A stretch of 64,000 nt of DNA. It comes from Limnohabitans sp. Its GTDB lineage: Bacteria; Pseudomonadota; Gammaproteobacteria; Burkholderiales; Burkholderiaceae_C. Below the pieces are notes generated by a model that did not search any database, was not told the origin of the DNA, and was given only the letters and a program-made list of their open reading frames with translations. This document shows, in pieces, positions 45,230 to 53,799 of this stretch. The translations under genes were made by a program, and so were the position numbers. The DNA is taken from positions 35,056-99,055 of the forward strand of contig NZ_JAFEIF010000002.1 of assembly GCF_017848645.1 (NCBI RefSeq), given 5' to 3'. Position 1 is the stretch's first letter; the number at the start of each line of letters is the position of its first letter.

Positions 45230-46204
45230 TCAGCCCTGTCCCAGCAGCTGCGCAAAGCGGGCCAGGTCCACATTGCCGCCGCTGACAATGATGCCCACGC
45301 GCTGGCCTTGCAATTGCCCGGTCGCTTGAAGGGCGGCCGCCAGCGACAAACAACCCGTGGGCTCGACCACCATCTTCATGCGTTCGACGTAAAAGCGCAT
45401 TGCCTCAATCAGTTGCGCATCGGTCACGGTGTGCACGTCGTCCACCAGGCGACGGATGATCTCGAAGGTGATTTCGCCGACCATGGGCGTTTGCGCACCG
45501 TCGGCAATCGTCACCGGGGTGGCAATGCGCACCCGCTGGCCCTGTTGCAAGGACTGCTGCACATCGTTGCCCGCTTCGGGCTCGACGCCGTAAATTTTGC
45601 AGTTTGGCGACAGCGCCTTGGCCGCCAAGGCGCTGCCGCTGAGCAGGCCGCCGCCGCCCAGGCACACGAACAAGGCGTCGAGCTCGCCCACTTCCTGAAA
45701 CAACTCCAGCGCGGCTGTGCCCTGGCCACTGAGCACATCCGGGTGGTCAAACGGTGGAATGAAGCGCCTGCCCTGTGCGGCGGCAATGCCCTGCGCAATG
45801 GCCAGTGCATCGTCCTTGTAACGGTCATAGCCCACCACCTGCGCGCCGTAGCCCCGGGTAGCGGCCAACTTGGCAGGCGAGGCGTCGTGCGGCATGACGA
45901 TGGTGGCCGGGATGTCCAGAATCTGCGCCGACAAAGCCACGGCCTGTGCGTGGTTGCCCGACGAGTAAGCCACCACCCCGGCGCGGCGCTCGGCAGGTGT
46001 CAGCCGCGACAGGGCATTGAAGCCGCCGCGGAACTTGAAGGCCCCCATTCGCTGGAAGTTTTCGCATTTGATAAACGCCTGCGCGCCCAACTGCGCGTTG
46101 AGCGTGCGCGACTGCAGCACCGGCGTGCGGTGGGCATGCCCTTGCAGCCGCGCGGCAGCGGCCAGGACGTCGTCAAAAGTGGGTAGGGTGCTGGCATCGT
46201 GCAT
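45230..46204 (-). CDS. PLP-dependent threonine/serine dehydratase-like enzyme
   Basis: A 324-residue fold-type II PLP enzyme. The PLP Lys is in GAFKFRGGFNAL, the phosphate-binding loop is CLGGGGLLSGSA and the substrate loop is VAYSSGNHAQAVAL. The short length and lack of an ACT domain fit catabolic threonine dehydratase, serine racemase or threo-3-hydroxyaspartate ammonia-lyase. These cannot be told apart from sequence alone. The start at 46204 has AGGGA upstream; a Met 24 codons earlier is less likely. It converges with putA (84 bp between stops) and is divergent from an acyl-CoA synthetase. Confidence 0.87.
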   Translation of the reverse strand: MHDASTLPTFDDVLAAAARLQGHAHRTPVLQSRTLNAQLGAQAFIKCENFQRMGAFKFRGGFNALSRLTPAERRAGVVAYSSGNHAQAVALSAQILDIPATIVMPHDASPAKLAATRGYGAQVVGYDRYKDDALAIAQGIAAAQGRRFIPPFDHPDVLSGQGTAALELFQEVGELDALFVCLGGGGLLSGSALAAKALSPNCKIYGVEPEAGNDVQQSLQQGQRVRIATPVTIADGAQTPMVGEITFEIIRRLVDDVHTVTDAQLIEAMRFYVERMKMVVEPTGCLSLAAALQATGQLQGQRVGIIVSGGNVDLARFAQLLGQG

Positions 46205-46318
46205 GGGGGATCCCTGAAAGCTTGCAAAGTGGACATGGTGACATGACTGGCGGATTGAAAAGCACCCGCTTGCCACTTGCGAGACAAAGTCAGCCTCAGG
46301 TGCTGGCTAACATGGGTC

Positions 46319-48214
46319 ATGCACCTGACTGTTTCATCCCCCGTTCAAAGCCTGGCCGACATCCACCGCATCGAGGCCACGCCACTGGCCGAGGCCGCGC
46401 CTTGGACCAACACCTATGCGCTGATCCGAGCCAGCGCCTTGGTTCATGCCGAGCAGCCTGCGCTGAGCTTTTTGCACACGGGCCTGCCCGGCGGTACGGT
46501 CACCACCTGGACCTACCGCCGCTTGCTGCAAGGCATCCACCAAACCGCCAATTTGTTGCACCAGCTGGGTGTAGGTCCTCAAGACGCCATGGGGGTTTTG
46601 TTGCCCGGCGGCCTGGCTTACCACCTGGCGCTGTGGGGCGGCGAGGCGGCGGGCATTGTGCAGCCGCTCAACCCGCTGCTCAGCGATGAAAAACTGCTGT
46701 CGCTGCTGCGGGCCAGCAACGCCAAAGTGCTGATCGCGCATGGCGCTGAAGACGACAGCCAGTTGCGGTCCAAAGCCTTGCGGCTGCAAGCGCAATTGCC
46801 CAGTTTGAAGACGGTGTTGCTGGTCAATCCAGATGGAGGCCCACTTCAAGATGGTGACGCGCTGCCTGCAGGTGCGCAAGACTTCCACGCCTTGCGGGCT
46901 ACGCAAGTGGCCGACCACCTGCTCAGCCAACGGACTTTTCAGCCCACGGACATCGCGGCTTACTTTCACACAGGCGGCACCACCGGCGCGCCCAAACTGG
47001 CGCGGCACAGCCATGGCGCGCAGGTCTTCACCGCTTGGGCCAATGCCACGATGCAGGGCTTTCAGGCCAGCGATGTGACGATCAATGGCTACCCGCTGTT
47101 CCATGTGGCGGGCGTGTTGCCCGGGGCTTTGTGCTCGCTGGCGGTGGGCATGCATGTGATCATTCCGACCGAGGCCTTGTTTCGCAACCGCGAGGTGGTG
47201 AAAAACTATTGGCGGCTGGTGGCGCACCACCGCTGCACGCTGATGTCGGGCGTGCCCACGGTGCTGGCTGCATTGGCGGGCGTGCCGCTGCAGGGGGCCG
47301 ACATCTCCACCCTGCGTGCCGTGCGCACGGGCGCAGCGCCGCTGCCGCCTGAGCTGGCGCAGCGCTTTGAACAAGCCTTCGGTTTGCACATCAACGAGAG
47401 CCTGGGCATGACCGAAACCGCCGGTCTGAGCACCGTGGCCCCGCCGGGCTTGAGTGCGCCCGCAGGCTGCGTCGGTTGGCCATTGCCGCATGCGCGTGTG
47501 CGCATCGTCGCGCTGAACAGCGATGACCAGGCCACAACGCACGCCCTGCCCGCAGGCGACAAAGGCATGGTGCTCTACCAAGGGCCGAATTTGTTTTCTG
47601 GCTACCTGGATGCCGCGGAGACAGCGCGCAGTTTCACGCCCGACGGCTGGCTCATCACGGGCGATGTGGGCTTCATCGACACACAAGGCCGCCTGCACCT
47701 GTCGGGCCGGGCCAAGGACCTGATCATCCGCAGCGGCCACAACATCGACCCCAAAGTGATCGAAGACGCACTGGGCGCGCATCCGGCGGTGGCCTTGTGC
47801 GCGGCAGTCGGTGCGCCAGACGCCTACGCGGGCGAATTGCCTGTGGCCTTTGCCACCCTCAAACCCGGCAGCCAGGTGACCGAAGCCGAGTTGCTTGCCT
47901 TCACGGCCGAGGGTGTGGACGAAGGCCCTGCCAAACCCAAATCGGTCACGGTGCTGAGCGCCATGCCGGTGACCAACGTGGGCAAAATTTACAAACCCGA
48001 ATTGCGCACCCTGGCCACTGCGGCGGTGGTGCAGAAACTGATCCACAACGCGATGTCACCCTTGCCGCTTGAGCCCGCGCAATGGCCACAGGTGCTGGCC
48101 ACAGGCGATGCCATGGTGGCGGTGGACGCCCGCGCCACGCCTGCCGCTGCTTGGAACACGCTCAAACCCCTGCTGGACGCTTTGCCCGTGAAGCTGGTGT
48201 TGCACGCACCTTGA
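46319..48214 (+). CDS. AMP-forming acyl-CoA synthetase (ANL superfamily)
   Basis: A 631-residue adenylating enzyme that activates a carboxylic acid to its CoA thioester. The P-loop is YFHTGGTTGAPKLARHSH, A5 is NESLGMTETAG, and the hinge region is GWLITGDVGFIDTQGRLHL followed by GRAKDLIIRSGHNIDPKVIE. The C-terminal catalytic Lys is in TNVGKIYKPEL. It is longer than standard members by a ~60-residue tail. The chosen start (46319) gives MHLTVSSPVQ; a Met 14 codons earlier is possible. It is monocistronic and ends with a terminator shared with topB. Confidence 0.9.
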   Translation: MHLTVSSPVQSLADIHRIEATPLAEAAPWTNTYALIRASALVHAEQPALSFLHTGLPGGTVTTWTYRRLLQGIHQTANLLHQLGVGPQDAMGVLLPGGLAYHLALWGGEAAGIVQPLNPLLSDEKLLSLLRASNAKVLIAHGAEDDSQLRSKALRLQAQLPSLKTVLLVNPDGGPLQDGDALPAGAQDFHALRATQVADHLLSQRTFQPTDIAAYFHTGGTTGAPKLARHSHGAQVFTAWANATMQGFQASDVTINGYPLFHVAGVLPGALCSLAVGMHVIIPTEALFRNREVVKNYWRLVAHHRCTLMSGVPTVLAALAGVPLQGADISTLRAVRTGAAPLPPELAQRFEQAFGLHINESLGMTETAGLSTVAPPGLSAPAGCVGWPLPHARVRIVALNSDDQATTHALPAGDKGMVLYQGPNLFSGYLDAAETARSFTPDGWLITGDVGFIDTQGRLHLSGRAKDLIIRSGHNIDPKVIEDALGAHPAVALCAAVGAPDAYAGELPVAFATLKPGSQVTEAELLAFTAEGVDEGPAKPKSVTVLSAMPVTNVGKIYKPELRTLATAAVVQKLIHNAMSPLPLEPAQWPQVLATGDAMVAVDARATPAAAWNTLKPLLDALPVKLVLHAP

Positions 48215-48241
48215 GGGTCTGAGCGGCTTGCGCATGGCCCA

Positions 48242-48272
48242 CAAAAACGCCACGACGGGCGTGGCGTTTTTT
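48242..48272. terminator. Bidirectional rho-independent terminator
   Basis: AAAAACGCCAC and GTGGCGTTTTTT are complementary around ACGGGC-type loop bases, with A-run before and T-run after. It therefore works for both the acyl-CoA synthetase (plus) and topB (minus). Confidence 0.9.
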
Positions 48273-48290
48273 GGGGTTCGGCTTGCGGAC

Positions 48291-51230
48291 TCAGCTCAGG
48301 TGCTTGCCAATGATCCCTGCCAGCTCGAACATGGTGGCCTGGTCTTTGCCAAACACCGCTTGCAACTTGCCATCGGCTTTGATGGAGCGCTTGTCTGCCG
48401 GGTCCTGCAGGTTGTTGGCCTTGATGTAGTCCCAGATTTTTTTGACCACTTCGGTGCGCGCAAAGGTGCCGTCGCCAATCACGGCCATCAGGGCCGGGCT
48501 GGGTTTGAGGGTGCCCACGGCGGCTTTGCGCGGGGCTTTTTCGGCGGCAGGTTTGGCGGCTTTTTTGGCGGCTGGGGCCTTGGCGGTTTTGGCGGCCGCC
48601 GTCTTGGCTGTGGTTTTCTTGGCCGCCGCTTTGCCAAACGGTGTTTTGGTCGCAGCCGTTTTGCGCGGTGGGTATTTCTTGCCGCCTTCACGCGGCTCGA
48701 ATTCGAACGTCACCTTGCCCTCTTCGGGGTTCCAGGCCAGCATGGCCTTGAAGCTGCGGCGGGTGCGGTTGCTGACGAACTTGTCGAGCACATCGGTTTT
48801 GCCGTTGGTCAGCAGTTTGACGACCTGCTCACGCTCGATGGGTTGCTGCAAGATGAGTTTGCCGGTCTTGAAGTCGCAACTCGGTGTGGGCTGTGAGTGG
48901 GTGGGCACGGCTTTGCTGCACAGGTAGTTGCTGCCGTGCTCGTGCACCGGGCTGCCGCACTTAGGGCATGAGCCCAGAGACTCGTCGGTGAACTCGACGA
49001 TCTCGCCACTCTCTTCGTTCTTCTTGTCGTCACCAAAGTCGAATTCGAGCTTCCAGTTCTTTTCTTCTTCGTTGTATTTGAGCGCCATCTCGGCCACAAA
49101 AGGCCAACCCGCCTTGGAGCGGAAGCCGTCCAGCGGGCCGATTTTTTTGTCGCGCATGAACTGCTCGACTTCGGCTTGTTCAAAGGTGCGGCCCGCAGGC
49201 GACTTGCCAAACGAGAAGCCACAGCCGTCGCTCGCGCCATCGGCCCCGGTGCAGGTGTACCTGCGGTAGTTTTCTTTGACCACACCGCCGCAATTGGGGC
49301 AAGGCGTGCTCAGTGTGGTGTAGTCACCCGGCACGGTGTCGCGGTCGTACTCTTTGGCTTTTTTGACGATGTGCTCGGTCATGGCCGCGATCTCGGCCAT
49401 GAAGGTGGCGCGGCTCAATTTGCCTTGCTCCATTTGCGCGAGCTTGTATTCCCACTCGCCCGTGAGTTCGGGGCGCGAGAGTTCTTCGACCTGCAAGCCG
49501 CGCAGCAGCGTCATGAGCTGGAAGGCCTTGGCCGTGGGGATGATCTCGCGGCCTTCGCGCAGCATGTATTTTTCGTTCAGCAGGCCCTCGATGATGGCCG
49601 CACGCGTGGCGGGTGTGCCCAGGCCTTTTTCCTGCATGGCTTCGCGCAGTTCGTCGTCGTCCACCAATTTGCCTGCGCCTTCCATGGCACCCAGCAGGGT
49701 GGCTTCTGAATAGCGGGCGGGCGGCCGGGTCTTCAGGCCCTTGGCCTCGACCGACTCGACACCGACTTGCTCGCCAGGCTGCACCGGCACCAGGTTCTGG
49801 CCTTTGTCACCGTCTTTGGCGTCTTCCACTTCGGCGGCGGCTTCCTTGCCGTAAATCGCCAGCCAACCCGGCTTGACCAGCACCTTGCCCACGGTCTTGA
49901 AGCTGTGGCCTGCGGCCACGCTGATGCGGGTGGTGACTTGGTACTCGGCGCTGGGGAAGAACACCGCCATGAAGCGGCGCACCACCAAGTCGTACAGCTT
50001 TTGTTCCGCCTCAGACAAGCCGCTGGGCGCTTGCAGCGTGGGGATGATGGCGAAGTGGTCCGAGACCTTTTTGTTGTCAAACACCCGTGGGATCTTGCGC
50101 ACGTAGTTGTTGTTCAGGGCCGTGAGCGCGTGCGGGGCCAGGTGGCGCATGCCACTGTCGGCCAGCATTTCAAAGGTTTGTTTGGCCACGGGCACGTAGT
50201 CCTCGGGCAGGTGGCGCGAGTCGGTACGGGGGTAGGTCAGGGCCTTGTGGCGCTCGTAGAGGCTTTGGGCCAGCGCCAGCGTCGTCTTGGCCGAGAAGCC
50301 GAACTTGCCGTTGGCCTCGCGCTGCAAACTCGTCAGGTCAAACAAACCGGGGCTCGCTTGTGTGGTGGGTGTGGCCTCTTCGGTCACGTTGGCCGTCTTG
50401 CCGCGCACAGCCTCAACAATGGCTTGGGCTTCGGCAGCCGTCCACTTGCGGTCGGCTTTCTTTTCGGCGTCCTCGTCCTTTTTCCATGCGGGGTCAAACC
50501 ACTTGCCCGGGTAGGTGCCTGCAGCGGCGGCGAACTCGGCGTGGATTTCCCAATAGTCACGGCTGATGAATTTGCGGATCTGCTCCTCGCGCTCGACCAC
50601 CACGGCCAGCGTGGGTGTTTGCACCCGGCCCACGGTGGTCAAAAAGAAGCCGCCATCGCGCGAATTGAACGCGGTCATGGCGCGGGTGCCGTTGATGCCC
50701 ACCAGCCAATCGGCCTCCGAGCGGCTGCGGGCGGCGTCGGCCAGGCCCTGCATCTGGGTGTTGGTGCGCAGGTTGTCAAAGCCATCGCGGATGGCTTGGG
50801 GCGTCATGGACTGCAGCCACAGGCGTTGCACTGGCTTGTCCAGCGCCTTGGTGCCGCCTGCGTACTGCTCGATCAGGCGGAAGATCAACTCGCCCTCGCG
50901 GCCGGCGTCGCAGGCGTTGATGAGGGCGTTCACGTCCTTGCGCTTGGCTTGCCTGACCACGGCCGTCAAGCGGCTCTTGGTTTTGTCCACCGGCTTCAAG
51001 TCAAAGTGCGGCGGAATCACCGGCAAATTGGCAAAGCTCCACTTGCCGCGTTTGACGTCGTATTGCTCGGGGGCCTGGATCTCCACCAAGTGGCCCACGG
51101 CGCTGGTGACCACATAGCGGTCGTTTTCGAAATGGTCGTCGTGTTTCTCGAACTTGCCCGAGGTCGGCGTCAAGGCTTTGACGATGTCTTGAGCCACCGA
51201 AGGCTTCTCTGCAATTACCAGTGTCTTCAT
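48291..51230 (-). CDS. topB: DNA topoisomerase III with histone-H1-like tail and C-terminal SWIB domain
   Basis: A 979-residue type IA topoisomerase. The Toprim domain opens MKTLVIAEKPSVAQDIVKAL and has CDAGREGELIFRL. The active-site Tyr is near residue 332 in ALTYPRTDSRHLP. C-terminal zinc-finger-like blocks begin CPNCGGVVKENYRRYTC (about 649) and CPKCGSPVHEHGSNYLC (about 754). Then comes a Lys/Ala/Pro-rich stretch (about 860-903, such as GKAAAKKTTAKTAAAKTAKA). The last ~73 residues form a SWIB/MDM2-like domain (VVKKIWDYIKANNLQDPADK and LQAVFGKDQATMFELAGIIG). E. coli TopB is about 650 residues and lacks both extras. It is divergent from a SET-domain gene. Confidence 0.93.
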   Translation of the reverse strand: MKTLVIAEKPSVAQDIVKALTPTSGKFEKHDDHFENDRYVVTSAVGHLVEIQAPEQYDVKRGKWSFANLPVIPPHFDLKPVDKTKSRLTAVVRQAKRKDVNALINACDAGREGELIFRLIEQYAGGTKALDKPVQRLWLQSMTPQAIRDGFDNLRTNTQMQGLADAARSRSEADWLVGINGTRAMTAFNSRDGGFFLTTVGRVQTPTLAVVVEREEQIRKFISRDYWEIHAEFAAAAGTYPGKWFDPAWKKDEDAEKKADRKWTAAEAQAIVEAVRGKTANVTEEATPTTQASPGLFDLTSLQREANGKFGFSAKTTLALAQSLYERHKALTYPRTDSRHLPEDYVPVAKQTFEMLADSGMRHLAPHALTALNNNYVRKIPRVFDNKKVSDHFAIIPTLQAPSGLSEAEQKLYDLVVRRFMAVFFPSAEYQVTTRISVAAGHSFKTVGKVLVKPGWLAIYGKEAAAEVEDAKDGDKGQNLVPVQPGEQVGVESVEAKGLKTRPPARYSEATLLGAMEGAGKLVDDDELREAMQEKGLGTPATRAAIIEGLLNEKYMLREGREIIPTAKAFQLMTLLRGLQVEELSRPELTGEWEYKLAQMEQGKLSRATFMAEIAAMTEHIVKKAKEYDRDTVPGDYTTLSTPCPNCGGVVKENYRRYTCTGADGASDGCGFSFGKSPAGRTFEQAEVEQFMRDKKIGPLDGFRSKAGWPFVAEMALKYNEEEKNWKLEFDFGDDKKNEESGEIVEFTDESLGSCPKCGSPVHEHGSNYLCSKAVPTHSQPTPSCDFKTGKLILQQPIEREQVVKLLTNGKTDVLDKFVSNRTRRSFKAMLAWNPEEGKVTFEFEPREGGKKYPPRKTAATKTPFGKAAAKKTTAKTAAAKTAKAPAAKKAAKPAAEKAPRKAAVGTLKPSPALMAVIGDGTFARTEVVKKIWDYIKANNLQDPADKRSIKADGKLQAVFGKDQATMFELAGIIGKHLS

Positions 51231-51325
51231 GTCATTACAATCCGTTGTCTCGCGTGTGCGCACGCGCCCGGGCACACGCTCACGCGCACGCCCACATGGA
51301 TTCACCATAACAAATTTTTAACGCC
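51231..51325. promoter_or_regulatory. Shared divergent promoter region of topB and the SET-domain gene
   Basis: A 95-bp gap holding both promoters. It contains CGCGTG-TGCG-CACGCG dyad sequence (about 51252-51267) and CA-rich repeats. No clear sigma70 hexamers were picked out. Confidence 0.4.
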
Positions 51326-51859
51326 GTGGCCAAAACACCTGTTTCATCCCCCAGCCGCGCCAAGCCGAGCGCATCCGGCAAACGCATCCAGGTTCGCCGC
51401 TCCGGCGTGCACGGCAAGGGCGTGTTCGCGCTGCAAGACATCGCCGAAGGCGAGACCCTGATTGAGTACGTGGGCGAGGTCATCAGCTGGGACGAGGCAC
51501 AAGACCGCCACCCGCACGACCCCGAAGATCCGAACCACACGTTTTACTTCCATGTGAACGAAGACCGGGTGATCGATGCCTTGTACGGCGGCAATTCTTC
51601 GCGTTGGATCAACCACAGCTGCGACCCCAACTGCGAGGCCGACGAAGACAATGACCGCATCTTCATCAAAGCCATCCGCAACATTGCAGCAGGTGAAGAG
51701 CTCAATTACGACTACGGCCTGATCATCGATGAGCCCTACACCAAGAAGCTCAAGGCCGAATACCCCTGCTGGTGCGGCAGTGCCAATTGCCGGGGCACCC
51801 TGCTGGCTCCCAAGCGCCGCCCGGCGACGCCCAAAATCCCTGGTCAGAAAAGACGCTGA
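51326..51859 (+). CDS. SET-domain lysine methyltransferase
   Basis: A 177-residue protein starting at GTG. A short basic N-terminus leads into a SET domain (about 20-145): VHGKGVFALQDIAEGETLIE, the SAM/pseudoknot motif WINHSCDPNCEA, and GEELNYDYG with its catalytic-type Tyr. A post-SET segment follows with Cys residues CWCGSANCRG (about 146-156), and a basic tail. Bacterial SET proteins are mostly close to this minimal size. It is divergent from topB, whose Lys-rich tail is a possible substrate (inference). Methyltransferase activity is expected from family, not proven. Confidence 0.9.
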   Translation: MAKTPVSSPSRAKPSASGKRIQVRRSGVHGKGVFALQDIAEGETLIEYVGEVISWDEAQDRHPHDPEDPNHTFYFHVNEDRVIDALYGGNSSRWINHSCDPNCEADEDNDRIFIKAIRNIAAGEELNYDYGLIIDEPYTKKLKAEYPCWCGSANCRGTLLAPKRRPATPKIPGQKRR

Positions 51860-51901
51860 ACCCCGACGGCGGCTGGCGTACCCCCAGTGGGTTTCGCCTC
51901 T

Positions 51902-51930
51902 TTGTAGGAGCCCATCCCTGTGGGCGATGG
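51902..51930. repeat. REP-like short palindrome in the SET-birA gap
   Basis: TGTAGGAGCCCATCCCTGTG and the following GGCGAT contain the hairpin GCCCA-TCCCTG-TGGGC (51910-51925) preceded by a TGTAGGAG head. That is the layout of REP elements known from Pseudomonas and relatives. The rest of 51860-52018 shows no gene. Confidence 0.5.
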
Positions 51931-52018
51931 AAGTCACGACGACAGGAGTCATCTCCCCAAAGCTGGGGTCCATACAAAGACCCGCCTCAACCACGCATGT
52001 TTGCATCCACCTTGCCCC

Positions 52019-52780
52019 ATGATCACGCCTACCGCCTGGCCCGCTGAAACGATATGGGAGCAGGTCTACTCCCTGTTGCCCGATTTCACCGTCGAGGTGT
52101 TGCCCGAGATCGACTCGAGCAACAGCGAGCTGATGCGCCGCGCCCGCGCAGGCCAGCACGAGCCGACCTTGTTGGTGGCCGAGCGCCAAACGGCAGGCCG
52201 GGGCCGCATGGGGCGTGTCTGGCAAAGCCAGCCCGGCGACTCCCTCACGTTTTCGCTCAGCCTCCCGCTGACGCCGCAAGACTGGTCGGGTCTGTCGCTG
52301 GCCGTGGGCCTGAGCCTGGCCGAAAGTCTGCACCCCGACGTGGGCCTGAAGTGGCCCAACGATCTGTGGTTTCAGGACCGCAAGCTCGGTGGCATCCTGG
52401 TCGAGGCGGCCAGCATGGGCGGGCGCAGCCAGGTGGTGGTGGGCGTGGGCCTGAACATTCGCCCCCGGGCCTCAGACGGGCTGAATACGCCGCCAGCGGC
52501 CCTGACCGAGTTGTTGCCCGAGCTCACGGCCCCCGCTGCCTTGGGGGCAGTGGCATGGCCTCTGATCCAGACCCTGAAGGCTTTTGAAGCCCAGGGTTTC
52601 GCGCCGCTGCAAAAGCGCTTTGCCGCGCGTGACGTGCTGCAAGGCCGTGCCGTTTACACCAGCGATGGGCAGCAAGGCGTGTCGCTGGGGGTGGGCCCTG
52701 GGGGTGCGTTACGATTGCAGACAGAGCTTGGCGTGCAGGACATCCACAGCGCCGAGATCAGCGTACGCCCCAAGACCTGA
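52019..52780 (+). CDS. birA: Biotin-[acetyl-CoA-carboxylase] ligase, single-domain
   Basis: A 253-residue biotin protein ligase that biotinylates the acetyl-CoA carboxylase carrier. The ligase signature is AERQTAGRGRMGRVWQSQPG. KWPNDLWF and KLGGILVEAA contain the adenylation Lys residues. No N-terminal HTH is present, so it should not repress biotin genes as E. coli BirA does. The C-terminal SH3-like domain is present (LQGRAVYTSDGQQGVSLGVG). The ATG at 52019 fits the ligase-only start. The downstream membrane protein follows after 14 bp. Confidence 0.92.
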   Translation: MITPTAWPAETIWEQVYSLLPDFTVEVLPEIDSSNSELMRRARAGQHEPTLLVAERQTAGRGRMGRVWQSQPGDSLTFSLSLPLTPQDWSGLSLAVGLSLAESLHPDVGLKWPNDLWFQDRKLGGILVEAASMGGRSQVVVGVGLNIRPRASDGLNTPPAALTELLPELTAPAALGAVAWPLIQTLKAFEAQGFAPLQKRFAARDVLQGRAVYTSDGQQGVSLGVGPGGALRLQTELGVQDIHSAEISVRPKT

Positions 52781-52794
52781 CGGAACTGTGCAAG

Positions 52795-53115
52795 ATGAAA
52801 TACTGGTTGGCCATTTTGCTGGTGCTCAATGCCGCTGTGCTGGCGTGGCAATGGGACGCTTTTGCGCGCTGGGGCCATGGCCCCAACCAAGAGCGCGAAC
52901 CCGAGCGCTTGCAGCAGCAGGTGAGCCCCGAAGCCCTGAAGTTCGTGGTCATGCCGCCCGCTTCAAGCACGGCCGAGCCCGCCGCCGTGCAGGCCAGTGA
53001 CCCAGCCAGCGCCTTGCCTCCGGATGCCAGTGCCCCGGATGGAGCCGCCCAGGACCCAACCTCGGTCGCACCCTCCGCTCCCACCTCAGCAGCCCCGCCC
53101 GCTGCGCCTCGATGA
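52795..53115 (+). CDS. Small membrane-anchored Pro/Ala-rich protein downstream of birA
   Basis: A 106-residue protein with one N-terminal membrane helix (MKYWLAILLVLNAAVLAWQW), then NQEREPERLQQQVSPEALKF, then a low-complexity Ala/Pro/Ser/Asp tail. In related Burkholderiales the gene after birA usually encodes a longer protein with the same REPERL-QQV-PE stretch and a SPOR domain. No SPOR domain is visible here, so this may be a shortened form. It is not recognised beyond that. Confidence 0.7.
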   Translation: MKYWLAILLVLNAAVLAWQWDAFARWGHGPNQEREPERLQQQVSPEALKFVVMPPASSTAEPAAVQASDPASALPPDASAPDGAAQDPTSVAPSAPTSAAPPAAPR

Positions 53116-53139
53116 TTTTTTGCCACGGAGATGATCCCT

Positions 53140-53799
53140 ATGAGTCTGAAACTTTACTTTGCCCCAGGTGCTTGCTCCTTTGTGCCCCATGTGCTGCTGG
53201 AGATGAGCGGTGCCGTGTTCGAGCCCAGCATGGTCAAGCTGCACAAGGGCGAGCAAAACAGCGCCGAATACCAGGCCATCAACCCGCGCGCTCAGGTGCC
53301 AGTGTTGGTCAATGCCGGTCAGCCGATTACGCAAATTTTGGCCATCGTGCTGCACCTTGATCAAATCTTCCCGCAGATGGGCTTTTTGCCCACCGAGCCC
53401 TTGGCCCGCGCCCAGGCGCTGTCCACCCTGGCCTGGATGAACAACACGGTGCACCCCACCTTCACGCACATCTTCATGCCGCAAAAGTTCTCGGACCAGC
53501 CCGAGGTTCAAGCAGCGCTCAAGCCCTACAACACGCAGCTGTTTCGCGGCATGCTGGGCGAGTTGCAAGGCTTGGTCCAGGCGGCCGCGACCCAAGGCCG
53601 ACCCTGGCTCAGCGGTGAACGCTTTGGCCCGCTTGACGCCTACAGCCTCACGCTCACCCGCTGGGGCACCATCGCGGGCATCACGCCCGAGGCTCACCCT
53701 GACTTGTGGGACTTTGTGCAGAAGGTGGCTGCCGAGCCTGCCGTGGCCCGCGTGATGGCGCGTGAGCGCTTGCAGCTGAACATGGGCGCGCCAGCCTGA
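53140..53799 (+). CDS. Glutathione S-transferase family protein
   Basis: A 219-residue GST-like protein. The N-terminal thioredoxin fold begins MSLKLYFAPGACSFVPHVLL, with Ser/Cys near the bacterial beta-class catalytic positions. The cis-Pro is in RAQVPVLVNAGQPITQI. The C-terminal helical domain has FGPLDAYSLTLTRW. GGAG at 53127-53130 lies at good distance from the ATG at 53140; the ATG three codons earlier sits against it. It converges with the sensor kinase gene (25 bp between stops). Confidence 0.88.
   Translation: MSLKLYFAPGACSFVPHVLLEMSGAVFEPSMVKLHKGEQNSAEYQAINPRAQVPVLVNAGQPITQILAIVLHLDQIFPQMGFLPTEPLARAQALSTLAWMNNTVHPTFTHIFMPQKFSDQPEVQAALKPYNTQLFRGMLGELQGLVQAAATQGRPWLSGERFGPLDAYSLTLTRWGTIAGITPEAHPDLWDFVQKVAAEPAVARVMARERLQLNMGAPA

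Follow-up and report, generated by a model that had tools for sequence, protein, structure and literature searches.

What would a free-living bacterium use a SET-domain protein for, and why would its gene be held beside that of a topoisomerase? The question is raised by a 64,000-nucleotide stretch of a Limnohabitans sp. genome (contig NZ_JAFEIF010000002.1, positions 35,056 to 99,055; here called the window), in which topB, the gene for DNA topoisomerase III, diverges from a gene for a small SET-domain protein, a predicted lysine methyltransferase. TopB carries a lysine-rich tail, and we propose that the SET protein most likely methylates lysines in it, a tentative reading drawn from sequence comparison to which we assign a probability of about 0.45. 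Tail methylation is the best single explanation of the locus chiefly because one peptide of the TopB tail decays together with the SET gene. The features concerned are given below in window positions.

48291..51230, minus strand: topB, DNA topoisomerase III with a Lys-rich tail and a C-terminal SWIB domain; 979 aa from ATG (Pfam, NCBIfam NF011313)
48510..48695, minus strand: Lys/Ala/Pro-rich tail of TopB, residues 846-907
48657..48677, minus strand: tail peptide KYPPRKT, residues 852-858, candidate methylation site (K852, K857)
48516..48536, minus strand: second RK motif, APRKAAV, residues 899-905, directly before SWIB
48297..48509, minus strand: SWIB domain of TopB, residues 908-978 (PF02201, E 5e-26)
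51231..51325, no strand: divergent control region common to topB and SET, 95 bp between the two starts
51251..51267, no strand: alternating purine-pyrimidine run CGCGTGTGCGCACGCGC, Z-DNA-prone and of a kind conserved here across the family
51326..51859, plus strand: SET-domain protein, predicted lysine methyltransferase; 177 aa, GTG start
51413..51718, plus strand: SET domain, residues 30-131, with NHSC (96-99) and the catalytic-type Tyr130 (PF00856, E 3.9e-26)
51767..51790, plus strand: post-SET-type cysteine cluster CWCGSANC (C148, C150, C155), the cysteines invariant in 27 aligned SETs
51920..52780, plus strand: biotin-protein ligase (birA-like, PF03099), third member of the block topB-SET-birA

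A sequence-only reading of this DNA had described TopB as bearing a Lys/Ala/Pro-rich tail at about residues 860-903 followed by a C-terminal SWIB domain, and had placed a minimal SET gene divergent from topB over a 95-bp region. The first description was borne out, with a tail that encloses the proposed range, and the second was confirmed at 51231-51325. These features are no product of chance. The 62 tail residues comprise 15 lysines, 20 alanines, 7 prolines and 3 arginines.

Natural losses of SET provide the key comparison. In the family (f1) of the window, whose genome is Limnohabitans-like and of the Comamonadaceae, a SET gene is present in 378 of 397 genomes and absent from 19. Four of the latter were set aside, three with TopB at a contig end (G337, G296, G268) and one, G594, with no TopB at E 1e-130. 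The remaining 15 belong to the genera g134, g136, g178 and g148, with a single genome, G586, from g126. TopB is kept in these genomes, and birA adjoins topB in 15/15, which indicates that SET was cleanly lost. On the TopB tree the SET state changes at least four times, by about four losses.

In the clade of the window the TopB tail opens with a peptide such as SKFPPRKTAA or KKYPPRKTAA. The named loci used at first were found through the SET protein; 7 of these 80 lacked a scorable TopB, and 66 of the 73 scorable ones gave a closed tail. A strict pattern, [YF]P[PA]RK, was found at first look in 66/66 tails of SET-bearing loci with SWIB and in 7/58 tails of SET-bearing, SWIB-less loci of the family; on new genomes of the clade it was found in 12/22 with SET and 0/3 without. 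We next fixed a relaxed pattern, K[YF]P.{0,2}R, before checking it on fresh SET-bearing genomes from 39 genera, where it was present in 38/40 at first scan and in 39/40 after one tail was re-delimited. On a 99-row TopB tree of one clade, which samples one named locus in four and does not include L271 and L272 (both with SET and peptide), the relaxed pattern occurs in 82/84 rows with SET as opposed to 1/15 rows without. SET-less stems account for 8% of the tree length compared and carry four of the six peptide losses (P 0.0006); when all SET-less branches are counted (16% of tree length), P is 0.008. Of four independent pairs, an average of 3.5 show peptide and SET changing in the same direction, 0 in opposite directions and 0.5 no difference. 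An out-of-sample case is G586, which has lost both SET and the peptide while five congeners keep both.

The SET-less genus g134 offers a test of specificity. Its four scored TopB tails contain 0-1 lysine, with K/(K+R) of 0.00-0.10, and lie 7.5-8.8 SD (standard deviations) below the GC trend of 124 tails from SET-bearing loci; arginine stands in place of lysine (L104-L107, L293, L294). Lysine-bearing tails persist on the free SWIB protein in each of the six g134 genomes, so that base composition, or a general loss of H1-like tails, explains the lysine loss in TopB poorly. GC drift is thus an unlikely cause. The conserved lysines of the free SWIB protein (MATAKK, KRTPNAAF) are still present in SET-less g134, g136 and g178, and G586 has kept MATAKK with ANSGFM instead of KRTPNAAF; the lysine counts in this comparison include residues upstream of the start codon, and two of its entries, L361 and L365, represent the SWIB domains fused to TopB in g136. 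L359 (G254) gave no free SWIB match in that comparison. The free SWIB protein was considered as a coupled substrate and set aside, as no co-decay was seen.

Several observations weigh against tail methylation by SET. Among fresh SET-bearing genomes the strict pattern was missing in 6/40 (34/40 hold), and the ten failures among the new clade genomes, judged by eye, comprised five of spacing only and five without a lysine after the arginine. These failures imply that the lysine after the arginine is dispensable, and its candidacy as an invariant site is weakened (12/22, 34/40), the relaxed peptide with a lysine before Y/F-P having held better. The seven SWIB-less carriers of the strict pattern all come from the window's clade; elsewhere the peptide is rare even with SET, and about half of the family has another tail type (such as AKxPAKKAAAKK). 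Beyond the family, f6 has SET beside TopB tails with a single lysine. With only four independent pairs a sign test cannot reach 0.05. The motif was first defined partly on g134, g136 and g178, which were later counted as losses, and the SET-less genomes new to it are only G586 together with G545 and G589 of g134. G254 (g148) has no SET and yet keeps KYPARKT, and SET-less g178 keeps other ARK motifs elsewhere in its tail. SET-less lineages also have small genomes and rather long TopB branches, and general decay in them is a possible alternative cause of peptide loss; among the clade's SET-bearing genomes of ≤2.8 Mb whose tails were read, the peptide is kept in 8/9. Co-loss of tail and SET, the check proposed with the sequence-only reading, came out mostly positive for one tail peptide in one clade, with G254 as the exception.

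The SET protein itself looks like an enzyme of the expected kind. The window SET is a minimal protein, made of SET and post-SET with no long lysine-rich tail of its own, and its named relatives are up to 93% identical. H29, G30, G32, N96, H97, C99, Y130, C148, C150 and C155 are invariant across 27 aligned SETs, residues and motifs whose roles we take to be catalytic and zinc-binding. It has the hallmarks of a class V SET protein (HGxG, NHSC and the catalytic Tyr) and those of the SET1/MLL (KMT2) type, namely MLL1 as nearest fold and CxCx4C after the SET domain. A PDB sequence search returned KMT2A/MLL1 as best match (E 3.9e-26), and an AlphaFold model with a mean pLDDT of 81.5 gave the MLL1 SET domain as best fold match (E 1e-14, 36% identity); the assignment as a methyltransferase type that the sequence-only reading had made is upheld by these motifs and relatives. 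In the motif YDYG the first Tyr, before the catalytic one, presumably favours mono- or dimethylation, a rule from eukaryotic SETs, and by that analogy the product would be mono- or dimethyl-lysine. The best candidate site in TopB would be the peptide K852-Y-P-P-R-K857-T, right after the last core repeat, which we infer to be the substrate. Methylation there would leave the charge unchanged and alter the grip of the tail on DNA or on a partner; the altered grip would in turn tune decatenation or relaxation by TopB. On this view SWIB, a module that binds protein or DNA and is a relative of the free SWIB protein, would have been added later and would not be required by the mechanism.

Within the family the pairing of the two genes is nearly universal. 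topB and SET diverge in 73/73 scorable named loci, with gaps of 58-180 bp. Among 60 family loci with a SWIB-less TopB, SET lies beside topB in 58 (57 divergent and one abutting), the two exceptions being G339, with its sole SET on a different contig, and G337, with TopB at the end of a contig. The conservation of the adjacency is thus family-wide and not a matter of a few strains, as the check proposed with the original observation had asked. The same 58 loci indicate that SET follows topB and not SWIB. SWIB was accordingly rejected as the coupled partner, since SWIB-less loci keep SET while g136 and G586 keep SWIB without it, and the idea that SWIB was part of the coupling did not survive. 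Neither did the notion of a long H1-like tail as part of it, for many SWIB-less TopB tails of the family are only 16-25 aa long. SWIB-fused TopB was found in 7 sampled members of the family and in 0/213 others among 220 genomes of the order; in a wider family sample roughly half of the TopB matches extend to the SWIB end (counted by eye). The adjacency carries less weight than its constancy suggests, as birA is near SET in 121/122 family loci with at least 3 kb of room. Because SET-birA is as conserved as SET-topB, topB-SET-birA is one inherited block and the in-family adjacency is not independent evidence. This too counts against a functional link with TopB, and adjacency was rejected as proof of function.

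Of the 220 genomes, 56 have SET and 106 have TopB; outside the family, SET and TopB occur together in 38, TopB alone in 61 and SET alone in 11. SET lies ≤20 kb from topB in 12 of the 38 with both, against 0.5 expected under random placement of independent genomes, although these 12 come from six families and are not independent, and in G030 and G074 the distance was measured across the joined ends of one contig assumed to be circular. In the other 26 no SET is shown within 20 kb of topB, many having the two on different contigs. By family, 17 have SET and TopB, 7 TopB only, 4 SET only and 20 neither (Fisher P 0.0004, genome size uncontrolled). In f6 the order gyrB-SET-topB occurs in 2/3 genomes, the third contig starting at SET, and in f31 SET follows gyrB in 3/5, gyrB being recognised by eye in both families. 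The loci with SET directly beside gyrB are L164 and L169 (f6, between gyrB and topB) and L136, L269 and L270 (f31); in L136 SET is also close to dnaA, again by eye. Since gyrB and topB are often close anyway, part of the SET-topB proximity is chromosomal geography. Lysine-rich TopB tails are common in other families (99 non-family genomes with TopB, of which 80 were fetched and 78 gave a scored tail), and 61 of the 99 have no SET match, which speaks against tying a lysine-rich tail as such to SET. The interpretation given with the sequence-only reading, that SET modifies the TopB tail, is partly supported overall.

The inherited block leaves room for a different substrate. SET could methylate another protein of the cell (ribosomal, translational or metabolic) and lie beside topB only through ancestral inheritance of topB-SET-birA. 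We think this rather unlikely, while granting that the equally constant birA link, the 26/38 other-family genomes with no SET shown near topB and the persistence of TopB after clean excision of SET in 15/15 resolved genomes all fit it well; the co-decay of the tail peptide and the excess proximity outside the family (12/38 vs 0.5 expected) are what it leaves unexplained. SET might instead modify H1-like nucleoid proteins generally, with the free SWIB protein, its own lysine-rich tail and TopB among several targets. The presence in the same genome of a free SWIB protein whose N-terminal tail is H1-like (KKAAPAKK), and the occurrence of such tails on some SETs, would suit this view, as would the chlamydial and archaeal SETs that act on nucleoid proteins according to PMC3980110 and PMC6426960, with discordant results for Hc1. 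The view is nevertheless unlikely, given that the free SWIB protein and its conserved lysines persist in SET-less g134, g136 and g178 and that a search of the window's own genome for Hc1 (PF07432) gave 0 matches.

Two further explanations take SET away from the proteins of its own cell. BurB of Burkholderia thailandensis is a SET-domain methionine S-methyltransferase (PMC12542666), and an activity on a small molecule would follow that precedent; we consider it very improbable here, as the window SET aligns with KMT2/MLL including the post-SET cysteines and its neighbours are topB and birA, with no DMSP (dimethylsulfoniopropionate) pathway. Equally remote is a secreted effector against eukaryotic (protist) histones, as proposed for pathogen relatives: PMC3980110 describes LegAS4-like SETs from other proteobacteria as effectors that act on the histones of the host, and against such a role stand the presence of a SET gene in 378/397 family genomes and the place of the topB-linked SET in a chromosomal block conserved together with topB and birA.

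Some SETs have H1-like lysine-rich tails of their own, C-terminal in several Limnohabitans and N-terminal in 3/4 loci seen of f12. Loci with such SETs are L010, L020, L030 and L050 (C-terminal), L007, L008 and L253 (N-terminal), and L142, L143 and L144. As sequence features these tails suggest work on DNA-bound targets, DNA binding or self-modification.

The region between the two genes has a property of its own. The topB-SET gap contains an alternating purine-pyrimidine tract of CG and CA steps (L009-L088, L191-L250). Over 127 gaps the longest alternating run has a median of 21 (7-52) compared with 10.3 in dinucleotide shuffles, and among 116 loci spanning 8 kb or more it exceeds every other such run of the locus in 101 (medians of 21 in the gap and 13 elsewhere). 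The same measure favoured the 250 bp upstream of topB over the topB side in 51/62 fresh loci. Density gives a less clear picture: 59/116 loci have their densest 60-bp stretch within the gap, and the gap of the window, with a density of 43, is not the densest place of its locus (44). At least 50 alternating steps per 60 bp were found in 0/79 loci of other families and in 10/130 of the family, with medians of 33 and 43, respectively. The run in the window is 17 bp long and the third longest in the 64 kb. In SET-less genomes a run of at least 17 was present in 5/6 g134 and 3/3 g178; it was shorter in G254 (11) and G586 (13) and lost in g136 (6-9). Its survival in SET-less genomes means that the tract belongs at least partly to topB. 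A TACAAT box stands just upstream of the tract in most gaps printed. Alternating purine-pyrimidine tracts can flip to Z-DNA under negative supercoiling, and, separately from the methylation question, the tract offers a lead on the response of topB to supercoiling. A more ambitious scheme would have an MLL-type SET methylate K[YF]PPRK of TopB while the two genes are expressed from a common control region with a conserved Z-DNA-prone tract that senses supercoiling, which would join topology, TopB level and modification in one loop across a whole family of free-living bacteria; we regard this combination as doubtful.

TopB consists of a type IA core, two C-terminal Toprim_Crpt stretches, the tail and SWIB; its Pfam matches are Topoisom_bac (160-611), Toprim, two Toprim_Crpt stretches (best 784-845) and SWIB (908-978). 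A match to the histone-H1-like HC2 family at residues 847-904 is weak and sub-threshold (20.2 against a cut-off of 40 bits; Pfam). NCBIfam NF011313 (PRK14724, DNA topoisomerase III) covers residues 1-979 with 1947 bits against a curated cut-off of 1088, and because it spans TopB-SWIB end to end this architecture already lies within a curated family. The same genome has a second SET gene (G000:C12:68260-68565, L002) that is 62% identical to the window SET and adjoins a gene resembling a sodium/calcium antiporter, by eye. Rfam gave nothing at gathering scores over 46000-53500, and no sigma-70 consensus promoter was found in 48150-52100. Ahead of the GTG start of SET, positions 51296-51310 read as the mini-frame ATG GAT TCA CCA TAA; in the other half of the family the corresponding ATG (MISMYPK...) is apparently in frame with SET, whose start codon may have shifted. 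Past the 3' end of topB, 46277-48214 encodes an AMP-binding ligase. It was seen in at least 19/132 family loci, many of which have little sequence there, and the topB 3' side of the block is variable. One contig filed as an Akkermansia muciniphila metagenome-assembled genome (MAG) (L026) carries a Limnohabitans-type topB-SET locus with a SET 92% identical and is probably misbinned.

Known systems resemble this locus in part. In Chlamydia, as described in PMC6426960 and PMC12445093, a type IA topoisomerase ends in a SWIB domain that follows an unstructured stretch, and the same genome has a second, free SWIB protein and a SET protein (NUE/cpnSET). There SWIB is on topoisomerase I (TopA), whereas here it is on TopB (III), and here SET is directly linked to the topoisomerase gene and co-varies with its tail. 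Chlamydiae also have the histone-like Hc1/Hc2, while here there is no Hc1 match and HC2 appears only sub-threshold inside the TopB tail. SWIB-containing TopA is reported to be unique to Chlamydia (PMC12445093). With the SET1/MLL (KMT2) H3K4 methyltransferases the window SET shares fold, NHSC and YDY motifs and post-SET cysteines, a similarity known from sequence and model, and it differs in being only 177 aa, SET plus post-SET. The TopB protein itself does not differ from NF011313/PRK14724; what is added here is the SET linkage and the tail peptide. BtSET, LegAS4/RomA, BaSET and the archaeal Go1-SET are likewise prokaryotic SETs with activity directed at histones or chromatin proteins, but PMC3980110 describes them as host-directed effectors or as acting on MC1-alpha. 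There, most characterised bacterial SETs are treated as effectors against host histones and one archaeal SET acts on a chromatin protein. The words topoisomerase and SWIB are absent from the text of that review, and a literature search, with most subscription journals outside its coverage, found no publication on a SET gene linked to topB.

To our knowledge, ideas on what SET proteins natively do in bacteria not bound to a host are largely untested. A SET gene kept by topB throughout a family, together with a co-varying lysine peptide, offers a concrete candidate for an endogenous SET substrate, with K852 and K857 as sites, and natural SET knock-outs are at hand in g134, g136, g178, G254 and G586. 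If methylation of the TopB tail is true, bacteria would have a parallel to chromatin modification in the modified tail of a DNA-topology enzyme, comparable to the histone-tail methylation of our own cells.

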